Shown in pieces: positions 48,079-60,511 of a stretch of 64,000 nt of DNA. Under the pieces are notes generated by a model, which saw only the letters and a program-made list of their open reading frames with translations, ran no database searches and was not told the DNA's origin. A program made the translations under genes and the position numbers. The stretch comes from Panaeolus papilionaceus (Eukaryota; Basidiomycota; Agaricomycetes; Agaricales), in contig JADNRZ010000007.1 in the NCBI GenBank assembly GCA_015501605.1, forward strand, positions 124,001 through 188,000, given 5' to 3'. Every line of letters starts with the position of its first letter. The first letter of the stretch is position 1.

Positions 48079-51000
48079 TTACTGTTTGGAGGTGAGAATA
48101 TCTTCCTCTGATATGTTGCTGTTTTCACATAAGCCGCGGAAGAGTCCGCTTTCCTTACGGAATAAAGCAAGAGGTGTATCAAATTCCTGCATAACGAATG
48201 GGTGGCCTTAGCAATAACAACGACGAAGTAGGAAGTATGTTGAACTGACCGCAACATTTCCACTCTCAAGGACTAGTATTCGATCATAGGAGAGAATCGT
48301 ACGCAAGCGGTCTAGGGATGCTATTCATTTACTCGAGCAAGGTCCCAGGAATGTTGTACACTTACGTGCGATGCAAATCAGGGTTCTGTCTTTGAATTCT
48401 GTTTGGATAGTTTGTTGAATCTTCTGATCCGTTTCGAGATCGACAGAGGCGCTTTATGTGGGGTGTTAAGCACGAAATATGATACGGGGATTTGAATATT
48501 TACGTGGCCTCATCCAAGATCACAACACGAGTATCCCTGACCAAGGCACGGGCCAAGCTTAACAAGGATCGCTCTCCAACGCTCAAGTTAGAGCCTTCGG
48601 ACTCAATGATAGTGTCCAGAGTGATTTTGTGCGCGTCCTCGGAGTTTGAGGAATACCCCACAAGATAAGAGCGTCGGAGTGCATCCCAGAGTTTGGTGTC
48701 ATCGTAGAGGGAGAATGGGTCTAAAGCACTGCGTACAGTGCCGCTGAAAACAGTGGGCTAGGGGCCTATTAAAATTCATTCGAGACACATGTATAAAGAA
48801 ACCTTACATCCTGGGGTATGATGGCGACTTTAGTGCGTAAATCCTTCAATCCCAGTTGTGCGATGTCGACACTAGACACCTATCAGTTCAATTACCTAAC
48901 TCTATCATAATTACTCACCCATCCAGTGTGATAAGACCGCTATACTCGACAATGCGAAGCAAAGCAAGCGTTATGGATGATTTGCCAGCTCCAGTCCTCC
49001 CAACAATACCAATTTTTTCACCTCCGCGGACGGAAAGAGAGATACCGTGCAGGACATTTGGCAAGTCGGGACGATATCTCATAGCCAAATCTTTGATACG
49101 AATTTCGCCGTGCTCAGGCCATGTCGGGCGAGGTTTATTTTTTGGGATTTCATGTGGTGCTTCTTGTTCCATGAGATCTTGCTGACTGTAGTGCGCGACT
49201 GTCACAAGGAAATCAGTTGGCCCATTCATTCGATAACACCCGATTCTTACCCCGTTCCACAGAGTTGAGATAATTCTAGCAAAAAAGGGAACATTTCAAT
49301 CACGATCTAGCTTAAAATTATTAGATAGCATACCTCGACTTCTGCTGTTTGTCTAGTCAACATACCACATGCCTGAGTCAAAGAGGCTACGGACGGGGGT
49401 TATGCTTATTGCGATTGCTGGAGTGTGCACACTGCTTACTTGTATAGGTCAAAACGAGACCGATCTGGGCTGCGGTTGCTCCTGAAACGCCGACAACAGC
49501 AAAGAGTGCAACCTAGAGGGAGTCAACACCAAGCACCGGTAGTGTAATTCAACAGCTTACAAAGAAAACGAGCAAGGCGCCGCAGAAGTCGAGACGGACG
49601 GAAAGCCACCTATGTGGCTTTTTTTTTAAAAAAAAAGTCAGCGTTTACAACCTGGAGCGCACCTTTGATTCGTGCATGTCAAGAAAAGGGCACGATTCTC
49701 CAGATCGATGTAGTATTCGTTGTCTTTGATGAAACGGGGGATTTCTCCGTAAGTTCGCAATGTTGGGAGACCTGAGAATGGGAAGTGAATAATCCATCCA
49801 TGATTGCGTGTTGGTGCCGTACCTGTCAGAGATTCCGACATGTGTGAATACAGGAGAGAACGAAGCATCGCATCTGGAAACAATTCAGCAGTTGTAAAGG
49901 TTACCTAACCAAGATAAAATGAATGCACCCAGTCGCTTTACTTCTCTTGCGCTTGCACGGTAGTAGGCGGCAAAATATTGATATCCCAATGCGACGAAAA
50001 ATGCGACGACGACTTGGTTTTGGGATGAGTATTTTGAATGGTCGGGTGGCTCAAGACTTACTAAAATAATGTTCAATAACCGTGATTATGATGACGGAGC
50101 CAAGGACGTTTGACATGGTCAGTAGGACTAGTACAACCATTAATTTGTGTGCGAAGGCAGTTTAAAAGGGAGATACACACGCATTCTGAGGGAAACTATA
50201 TAACAGGTCAATAAGTGGATAGATTGCTAGTGGTTGGTACTCGCCAGGCAATTGGTTGTCCATGTCTACCCAATTGTTGATTCAGACTGTTAGATGTTGT
50301 CCCAGAAAGAAATTGAATGGAATACATCAACGCACTGTCGATATCCTTCCCAAACACGCCAATTATTCTTCCCATAGGCTGTATAAAAATTAGCGCATTT
50401 TAAGGGAAGAGTAACTGTGACTTGAGGGTTACCGTTGTGTCGAAAAAGGACATCGGTGCATGGAATATATGAAAAATGGCACTTCGATGGAGATTGCGAG
50501 AGACAAAATAAGAGAATACATCCGCCGAGAAACCCCTTGAAAGATATGTAATTAGTAAAGGAAGCACCAAGAGTGAGAAAAAGGTTTACATGAGAAACGT
50601 CGAAATCGATTGCGCAATTCCTAAGGATGCATAAAGGATCTGATAAAATGAAAATGGACGGTTGAAAAAGCTGCTCGGTGTTGGTTAAAAGCGCTTATGC
50701 TAAGAGCGAGAACGCACTTCGCTTGCCACCACACCAAGGTGTACGAACTGAGAATCTGGCTTCCTTGCATCATGACCATGGCGACAAGCAGCAATGGCAA
50801 TGTAATAAGCCCCTTCCCAGCTTTCACGTAGGCCTTGTAGACTGTATAGCAGTTAGGAAAGACCTGTAATCAAAAGATCTATTTATCTTGCCTGTATTTG
50901 ATATAGAACCTGTTGCGCGGCGTTCTTTAACCATCAGCTTTCCCTCGAGTTTGCCGGTGCCGATAGCCTTGTTTAAGAGCTCCAGATGAATATCAGATTC

Positions 51001-58227: not shown

Positions 58228-60511
58228 ATGCAGTTCTCCAACAATCGTGCTCGATTTTTAGCATCCTCGCTGCCTTGCGACATGCCAATGTCGTTTTGCA
58301 ACCCTTCACCCAGAGATCAAGCTAGTTTTGCAGTGATATCCCGCCTCCTGTCATGTCTCGTTACGGAGAGGATTCTTTCTGCTGTTTACATCCCATTCAG
58401 GCGGCCCTTACACGCAGCAGCAGGTTTTTCTGTTGTATTGTTAATCGATCCCAACCTAGAAGGCGTCGAAAACTCCAGTGTCATACATTCCGACGCCATT
58501 TTCGCAATAGTTCCGCTACGTCACATCCCGGTACTCCAAAAGCAGTCCCGGAGAAAACACGGTCACATAATCGGCCTTTTGGACCCATTAGATATGGTCC
58601 CCTATATATATTGTCCGAAGGAGGTAATAGCGAATGAGGAGAAGCAGGTATGCCGTCACCTTTATCAAAAGGTACAGTTAATAAAGCCTATCAGGACCCC
58701 TACTGGTCGTACATCGCGAGTCATCTTTCTGGGCATGCGTGGTGCACCACAAACGTTGATGCATTTCTCCCGGTGCATGACCCAGTTTTCCTATGGCTAA
58801 AGTTCGCGGATTGGGCGTCGACAACGCAATCCCTTGGCGAAGTGATTAAAGCGGAAATTCAAAGCTCGTTATACTGGCAAAGTAGGGTGCGCGCCGTATT
58901 TAACTTTTGCTTGTGCTGACAGATCGACCAGCTTTGTCTTACGAAAATCCTCCCCGGTGTCCCACTCTTTCATCGCCCGCAATTGAATGGGAACAAAGCT
59001 TGGTTGCAGGTCACCCAACTCACCCAGTTCGTCTGAAGCACATCATCGCGTTTTTTTCTCTTATTTAAGTCATCGCAGATGCACCGAGCTAGGATGCTTC
59101 CTTCAGTGTCCATGGACTATGACTGGTACCACCCACGAATTCAATTTGTCAAAATTAGGAAGGAAGACGTTATCGTGGCTGGAGATTTTGAGTCTGTTAT
59201 GGAAGGCTTGATCAACAAGGCTATTTTACGCGCTAACGCTCAGCCACCACTTGTGGATGGGTACCTTTTCATGCCGATTCATGAACTCCAGATTGAGAAT
59301 GTCAAGGCGAAATTCCCAAATGTGGAAATTCTGGATCCTGAGATTTGCCTCCTTGCTTCAGCGCAATCAAGCATCAGGTAAGGCAATCCGATTCCCAGGA
59401 TCTATTTGTGTCAATCATCTTTGGTATAGGACTGTTATAGTACCAGACGCTCCTGGAATCGCTCTGAAACTGGCGCTAGGAGTGAGGATATCGTCTGCGC
59501 TGAGAACGATCTCCCATTTCACGGCTGATTTTGGGCCTCGATTTTCGGCAGACGTTGTCCCGAAATTGGCGATCGATCCAACCATTTTGCACGTCGAGCG
59601 CGAAACCTCGAGCGCTGTTTTCTCTTCTCCTGACGCAGAGCTATCCAAACACCTGACTACGGTTATACGTGAGGAGTATCAGCCCCCTTTTGGGGAGGTA
59701 GTTATCGTCGTCGCAGCCCTTTTGGAGTACCACCATTCTGAATCACCTCCTGGCGTCTCTGCGGTGCAAGAGGCATTCCAGCTGTACACGAGAGAAAAGC
59801 GTATCAACTTTCTCGATAGGTCCGTTTCTGTGAGTCATTGTATGTTCCTATCTGACTTACTTCACCAGATACATTCGAATTGCGTGCGCAGCATTGATCC
59901 CTGCTCTGATTCGAAACGGTGTTGCCTTTGAAGCGCACGCCCAGAATGTGTTGGTTCGTGTTGACGTCGCGTCCAAGCAAGTAAAGGGGTTTGTCATCAG
60001 AGACCTCGGTGGATTGCGGATTCATCCTCCTACCCTTCGCTCATCAACTGGGACTGACTTTCAATTCCTACCAACGCACTGTGTCGCAACAGAATCATTG
60101 GACGAAATTTATCCCAAGTTCTACCATACCTTCGTTCACAATCACATACAGCGCTTAATTCGGCTTCTTGATCTTCATAATGATGGCGTTGGTTGGGATA
60201 TGCTTAGGAAGCATATGAATGCCGTTATACCACGCAGTCACCCAGTGTGGAAGGTTTGGATGGATCCCAATGCGTTGACCGTGGACTCGAAGTGTCTTTT
60301 ACGTATGAGGATGAAGGATTCCTATCGAGACGTGGGTGCATTTATGCCGCTTTTTATTCTTCTGCGACTGACTGGTTTATGTTGGTACCCAAAGATGATC
60401 TATAGTCCATATCCCAACATGATCCAGTATCGCCCTATTCTCAATCTTGACGAGGATATACCGAAGAAGAATTCTGGCAAGTGGGCCTGGCCGCAGTGCA
60501 TCATCGCCTGA
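58228..60511 (+). CDS. NRPS-independent siderophore (NIS) synthetase B, IucA/IucC family
   Basis: Seven exons, 58228-58647, 58695-58881, 58932-59026, 59079-59377, 59430-59819, 59869-60331 and 60395-60511, join in phase to 656 residues. The intron positions match those of synthetase A; exons 3 and 6 have the same lengths (95 and 463 nt). Motifs are GHPTHP-MHRAR (229-239), FMPIHELQ (298-305), SSALRT (355-360), FEAHAQN (484-490) and GFVIRDLGG (504-512), then HNHIQRLIRLLDL. Both proteins begin their conserved part with SRLLSCLVTE or a near match. B has a longer N-terminus and a different C-terminal exon. The ATG at 58228 could be replaced by in-frame ATGs at 58282 or 58288. It is a tandem paralogue of A, with the same reaction class (carboxylate-amine or ester ligation) inferred. 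Confidence 0.88.

Follow-up and report, generated by a model that had tools for sequence, protein, structure and literature searches.

Mushroom iron acquisition is usually discussed in terms of hydroxamate peptides and reductive uptake. Does the genome of Panaeolus papilionaceus also encode a siderophore system of another chemical kind? The question is raised by a stretch of 64,000 nucleotides (assembly GCA_015501605.1, contig JADNRZ010000007.1, positions 124,001 to 188,000; hereafter the window, whose numbering is used unless stated otherwise). It carries two neighbouring genes, here called NISA and NISB, for nonribosomal peptide synthetase (NRPS)-independent siderophore (NIS) synthetases of the IucA/IucC family, and an ABCC transporter gene transcribed divergently from NISA. 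A first-pass annotation had seen here a compact iron-acquisition locus for making and exporting a carboxylate-type siderophore. We confirm the locus and find its genes intact; it adds one more example to a gene group that is widespread in mushrooms. Taking all parts together, we lean slightly towards reading it as two anciently diverged NIS synthetases that make a carboxylate siderophore from citrate and a diamine under an iron-GATA switch, with transport by the ABCC protein. Within this reading we infer the two substrates, the division of labour between the enzymes, the release of the product and the repression by iron. This kind of gene arrangement is already known from other mushrooms, as passages of two earlier papers describe (PMC8874372; PMC10700112). 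Added here are the age of the pair, 14 fixed differences between its members, a rare palindrome shared with iron loci of the same genome, and the usual linkage of the ABCC gene.

Structure of the synthetase genes

NISA (54799..56990, plus strand, 626 residues) and NISB (58228..60511, plus strand, 659 residues) have seven exons each and lie in tandem, separated by 1237 bp. Their introns were set by reading the two genes against each other; all six agree in position and phase, and the two proteins share 39% identity across 627 alignment columns. Both proteins clear the Pfam cut-offs for both domains of the family. IucA_IucC was found at residues 202-423 of NISA and 223-435 of NISB (102.1 and 91.3 bits, cut-off 25), and FhuF at residues 451-604 and 464-617 (42.6 and 51.4 bits, cut-off 25.2). 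Thus, the tandem pair of complete IucA/IucC-family genes that the first-pass annotation had described stands, with intact full-length splicing and both domains in each gene, and family membership was not refuted by the Pfam check. An exon-by-exon search of the 50.85-Mb genome found only these two places matching IucA_IucC or FhuF. Models from a splice-aware gene finder, which fused the ABCC gene with its neighbour and NISA with NISB, were dropped for the synthetases and partly used for the transporter.

NISA is 99% identical to the deposited P. papilionaceus protein P0110, which has 635 residues and is nine residues longer than our model, at the second intron. The orthologue P0109 lacks this insert, and residues 183-190 of the P0110 structure model have predicted local distance difference test (pLDDT) values below 50; we therefore think that the deposited model uses a wrong acceptor site at intron 2. 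In NISB, the last intron (60332-60394) is in-frame and was placed by comparison with NISA and the orthologues, and the true start may be a later in-frame ATG. Relatives in this study were drawn from the best 120 of 128 matches for NISB, 120 of 208 for NISA and 120 of 506 for ABCC (the matches listed), and no Panaeolus NISB protein occurs among those for NISB. A deposited model in which NISB is fused to a C2-domain gene, too long for the search, could possibly explain this; none was seen. Such a fusion of C2 domain and NISB does occur in the deposited models of Asterophora and Arthromyces. The idea that NISB is a pseudogene, suggested by the missing Panaeolus entry, was rejected: its exons are all open, its catalytic residues are kept and its introns match those of NISA. 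Judged by their reading frames, NISA and NISB are intact NIS synthetases.

Catalytic core and fold

A profile built from 40 family members found ten matching PDB sequences, including AsbB, DfoC, IucA, AcsD, IucC, AlcC, DesD and NcdF. In AcsD numbering, the residues H170, S279, R281, K293, R305, E442, H444, Q446, N447 and D464, which we take to be the ATP and citrate contacts, are all present in both NISA and NISB. The sole exception among the core residues checked is the position of AcsD T282, where NISB has T and NISA has S. Conservation was counted across 213 fungal rows, of which 108 belong to the NISA side, 102 to the NISB side and 3 to early fungi. The ten residues are nearly invariant on both sides. 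H444 is retained in 106 of 108 NISA-side rows and all 102 NISB-side rows, D464 in all 108 and in 101, R305 in 107 and 100, and H170 in all 108 and in 98, and the misses are mostly gaps. AlphaFold2 models of P0110 and of the orthologue P0003, which was used in place of the NISB of the window, have mean pLDDT values of 89.1 and 89.0. All 50 PDB rows listed for each model are NIS synthetases with template modelling scores (TMt) of 0.62-0.74, among them DfoC, SbnC, AsbB, AlcC, AcsD and DesD. The best NCBIfam match of both proteins is FslA, the bacterial rhizoferrin synthetase family (NF041038), at 61.5 bits for P0110 and 50.4 for P0003, far below the cut-off of 1000, so that neither counts as a member. 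NISA and NISB keep the catalytic core of the NIS family at the positions compared. In the passages considered, the NIS synthetases of Physalacriaceae, including all those of the two clusters discussed below, and their basidiomycete orthologues were placed in type A' (PMC10700112).

Age and divergence of the pair

The 213 fungal rows fell into groups of 108 and 105 in a FastTree of 234 rows, from which nine matches of odd length were left out; the smaller group contains the three early fungi. From the fungal rows, 17 of NISA and 15 of NISB were chosen for a detailed 47-row tree that also takes in 12 bacterial rows. Here the chosen NISA rows are one clade, moderately supported (88/78), and the NISB rows a second (97/88); members of Agaricales, Russulales, and Phallales or Hysterangiales occur in both. 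The nearest rows outside Agaricomycetes, from Umbelopsis, Spinellus and Coemansia, join NISB (90/90); a clade of NISA and NISB together is not rejected by the approximately unbiased test (p-AU 0.197). On this tree evidence, the duplication happened no later than the radiation of the sampled Agaricomycetes, and possibly before the split from Mucoromycota.

The two paralogues have also diverged in a consistent manner. At 14 alignment columns at least 90% of NISA rows share one residue and at least 90% of NISB rows another. Three of the 14 touch core motifs: S/T at the AcsD T282 position (S-I-R-T), P/H right after R-T-I-S, and F/L right after the R-D pair. The early-fungal rows match NISA at some of these columns and NISB at others, which fits divergence of both from one ancestor. 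A recent transfer of a bacterial gene into this genome was considered and rejected, because the six shared introns and the two clades, each spanning several Agaricomycete groups, point to old vertical inheritance. The search for bacterial relatives yielded 11 loci, all of them distant. Ten of these 11 (from Paenibacillus, Nocardiopsis, Metabacillus and Agaribacterium) have two long adjacent frames with NIS-type motifs, as judged by motif and frame length, and may be seen as a parallel to the fungal tandem pair. As a separate observation, two proteins of Ceratobasidium sp. AG-I, a member of Cantharellales, represent both NIS paralogues and nest inside the Agaricales rows (P0049 and P0156, on contigs of 234,556 and 11,554 bp); transfer of the pair into this Rhizoctonia-type fungus, or contamination, is possible.

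Gene order and the ABCC transporter

Calls of a shared contig in relatives rest on contigs of equal length. By this measure NISA and NISB lie together in 55 of the 69 named species with both among the matches listed, 16 of the contigs being shorter than 300 kb; a few species counts rest on divergent copies, such as NISA of Lentinula edodes and Tetrapyrgos (44-46% identical). Amanita phalloides, one of the 55, has a fused NISA-NISB model, whose halves fall on opposite sides of the FastTree. Consecutive tags demonstrate true NISA-NISB adjacency in ten species among the matches listed: Agrocybe pediades, Hohenbuehelia grisea, Asterophora parasitica, Tricholomella constricta, Coprinopsis cinerea, Hericium alpestre, Leucoagaricus sp., Termitomyces sp. 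Mi166, Sphagnurus paluster and Clathrus columnatus.

The ABCC gene (multidrug-resistance-protein or MRP type; 48079..54256, minus strand) encodes a full transporter of 1431 residues in 35 exons, spliced by hand, with one GC-AG intron (gcgagt...tag). The deposited P. papilionaceus protein P0220 is 95% identical to it over 100% and carries ABC_membrane and, in two stretches, ABC_tran. The start of the ABCC gene lies 542 bp from that of NISA, and the divergent promoter between them (54257..54798) has exactly the length given in the first-pass annotation, next to a transporter gene that proved complete. Among Agaricales species with both genes in the matches listed, the ABCC gene shares the NIS contig in 30 of 38, P. 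papilionaceus included, and consecutive tags place the two side by side in Psilocybe cf. subviscida, Leucocoprinus leucothites and Tetrapyrgos nigripes. A further 15 Agaricales species occur in the ABCC matches listed without a listed NIS gene. Thus, the three genes are not separated in all relatives, and the NISA-NISB pair and the ABCC linkage are, from these contig comparisons, old and widely kept. Directly downstream of NISB lies a C2-domain gene (61043..63080, plus strand; approximate model; C2 domain at 49.8 bits). The extent of 48079..60511 first assigned to the locus covers the three genes correctly but omits this fourth one, which is part of the published form of the cluster.

Iron-type GATA elements

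SreA-type GATA factors bind the consensus ATCWGATAA. Two exact copies of the palindrome TTATCAGATAA, starting at 57227 and 57824, lie between the synthetase genes, as the first-pass annotation had noticed. One occupies 57227..57237, about 1.0 kb upstream of NISB, and the other is contained in CTTATCAGATAAG (57823..57835), about 0.4 kb upstream. The pattern TTATCWGATAA occurs at 78 sites in the 50.85-Mb genome, and the reversed control pattern at 10. Two palindromes within 1237 bp correspond to a Poisson probability of 1.8e-6, although such sites tend to cluster, which this figure ignores. The shorter ATCWGATAA has 1080 occurrences on both strands against 402 for its control, which amounts to about 1002 distinct sites or roughly one per 51 kb. 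Chance occurrence of the palindromes was rejected on these genome counts.

The same element marks other iron loci of the genome, which were found by family search; lengths given here are measured between open frames. FTR1 and a divergent multicopper oxidase gene, read as Fet3, have four ATCWGATAA sites in the 891 bp between them. Two more lie in the 415 bp that separate a SidA-type ornithine-monooxygenase gene from one encoding AMP-binding and PP-binding domains, which was read as its NRPS. Of the seven Ferric_reduct loci, one has two palindromes within the 371 bp that precede its start. In Mucor lusitanicus, the rfs promoter reportedly carries ATCWGATAA as its SreA element, in the part of that paper considered (PMC9226013). 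The ABCC-NISA promoter contains three simple HGATAR matches and no ATCWGATAA site; judged from the placement of the elements, iron control is therefore suggested only by proximity for NISA and ABCC, and is well supported for NISB. A pattern for the Cys-rich spacer of iron GATA factors had no match in the longer frames of two finger-bearing loci (L038 and L039).

Some of these loci deserve mention in their own right. At L023:3686-3733 (G000 C45:95185-95232), two palindromes 37 bp apart immediately precede the start of a ferric-reductase-like gene, a good candidate for an iron-regulated reductase of P. papilionaceus. L024 (G000 C34:687500-694500), where two iron elements lie between divergently transcribed genes of the SidA-type monooxygenase and NRPS types, is the probable hydroxamate siderophore locus of this genome. 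Pairs of TTATCWGATAA exactly 51 bp apart occur at G000 C11:5234/5285, C21:488934/488985 and C37:179008/179059, and this spacing suggests a repeated element that carries iron-type GATA palindromes.

Comparison with known systems

Adjacent pairs of IucA/IucC core genes were described in a Stropharia paper of 2022, in the majority of the fungi compared, for example Hypholoma and Coprinopsis, according to the passages considered (PMC8874372). There the core genes of Stropharia carry PF04183 and PF06276, as do NISA and NISB. Proteins of Coprinopsis cinerea (consecutive tags CC1G_07067/07068) and Hypholoma sublateritium are among the NISA and NISB matches listed. Those passages give no account of iron elements, ABCC linkage, ages of the paralogues or fixed differences. 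In Physalacriaceae, two gene groups named NIS Clusters 1 and 2 are known; Cluster 1 has ABC transporters and a C2 gene, and a matching cluster exists in Agaricus bisporus, as described in the portion considered of a paper of 2023 (PMC10700112). With these two papers the part of the first-pass interpretation that treated the locus as new ground for basidiomycetes fell, but the intact synthetases, a credible iron control and an ABCC linkage that recurs across Agaricales remained.

In the features described in those portions, the present locus resembles Cluster 1 by its NIS synthetase, the C2 gene at 61043 and the ABCC gene at 48079-54256. Protein P0028 of Armillaria nabsnona falls in the NISB clade of the 47-row tree and is probably the published Cluster 1 gene, because an ABCC match lies on a contig of the same length. 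Cluster 1, as described there, has one synthetase per cluster, whereas there are two here, and no Armillaria protein is among the NISA matches listed. Other neighbours reported for Cluster 1 are Frag/DRAM/Sfk1, S-adenosylmethionine (SAM)-methyltransferase and P450 genes. The exon scan gave only a P450 exon, 26 kb from the ABCC gene, and no open reading frame of at least 110 residues readable as any of the three was found in the approximately 7 kb downstream of the C2 gene, where short exons would be missed. The Cluster 2 synthetases described in the same portions are shorter (483-559 residues, one to three exons), and the P. papilionaceus genome has no third IucA_IucC match.

Outside basidiomycetes, the closest comparison is rfs of Rhizopus delemar and Mucor lusitanicus, a fungal NIS synthetase gene with the same two domains and, in M. 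lusitanicus, ATCWGATAA in its promoter. As far as the source passages go, rfs is a single gene whose product performs both condensations, in contrast to the two paralogues here. In our tree, early fungi are represented by Umbelopsis, Spinellus and Coemansia. A literature search found no title or abstract opening in which the product of a mushroom NIS pair is named.

Proposed function and alternative explanations

In the reading towards which we lean, NISA and NISB would couple citrate with a diamine, one ligation after the other, to give a carboxylate siderophore. Low iron would switch the locus on through the GATA palindromes, and the divergent ABCC transporter would move the product; we infer that the siderophore is its substrate. 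An iron-repressed carboxylate siderophore system is the likely role, and a two-step ligation by NISA and NISB is plausible in view of their adjacency, age and divergent constraint. The ancestor was likely a single enzyme resembling rhizoferrin synthetase and performing both condensations, as in Rhizopus, and its Agaricomycete duplicates may have split or specialised the two steps. We put forward only tentatively, and with rather less than even expectation, the fuller version of this history: that a duplication before the radiation divided a one-enzyme rhizoferrin-type synthetase into first-step and second-step ligases, mostly adjacent since, which under iron-GATA control make an unsymmetrical citrate-amine siderophore undescribed so far. 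Mushrooms would then have a second siderophore, of non-peptide type, whose switch is also that of their genes for hydroxamate and reductive uptake. A widely kept pair of citrate-type synthetases sharing this iron element would give many Agaricales and Russulales a siderophore system of different chemistry in addition to the first, and the locus would show how a one-enzyme pathway became a two-enzyme pathway in fungi.

Several observations weigh against the cooperative siderophore pathway. Iron elements stand upstream of NISB only, six of the seven Ferric_reduct loci carry none, and no amine-supply gene was found among the neighbouring exons scanned. Siderophore output was unchanged with iron in one Armillaria strain, and expression of the clusters could not be conclusively proved, as reported in the passages considered of that study (PMC12973365). 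Species of Polyporales, Boletales and other groups have close ABCC homologues and no NIS genes among the matches listed, so that the transporter need not be dedicated. Moreover, NISA and NISB lie on different contigs in 14 of the 69 species listed, and Armillaria contributed only NISB to the matches listed. The last two facts would suit parallel enzymes, each making its own complete chelator, for example with different amines, and sharing location and regulation only. Consistent with this, one NIS synthetase suffices for rhizoferrin in Rhizopus, by the portion considered of the source (PMC7857480), and among the matches listed one paralogue appears without the other in Pleurotus and Laccaria (NISA) as well as in Armillaria (NISB). 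However, an unlisted paralogue may be a missing annotation, as with NISB of P. papilionaceus itself, and an adjacency kept from Clathrus and Hericium to Agaricales is easier to understand if the products meet in one pathway. We regard parallel enzymes as unlikely.

The transporter leaves room for other doubts. The ABCC gene might be a mere neighbour with general detoxification work beside a cooperating synthetase pair, which would be compatible with the other readings. Homologues about 56-60% identical do occur in many species without listed NIS genes, such as Trametes and Suillus. Against this stand the shared contig in 30 of the 38 species listed and the position of duplicate copies: among species with two listed ABCC copies, eight have one of them on the NIS contig, and a ninth, Mycena maculata, has neither there. 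On balance, a chance neighbour seems somewhat doubtful. ABCC/MRP proteins are often vacuolar conjugate pumps, and the product might instead be a citrate-amine conjugate that buffers iron or another metal inside the cell or vacuole, with the ABCC protein pumping inward. In favour of this, P. papilionaceus already possesses genes of SidA and NRPS type for a hydroxamate siderophore, but the solved relatives of NISA and NISB are titled as enzymes for achromobactin, aerobactin, alcaligin, petrobactin, staphyloferrin B and desferrioxamine, all secreted bacterial siderophores, and we consider an internal buffer quite improbable.

Neighbouring genes

Directly downstream of the ABCC gene and on the same strand lies a DEAD-box-helicase-like gene (44087-47727), whose DEAD match on one exon reaches 22 bits against a cut-off of 26. 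Other neighbours in the window are a cation P-type ATPase gene (22190-28974), a GT20 exon (33848-34588), a ribosomal L10 gene (35190-35969) and the P450 exon mentioned above (21595-21933).

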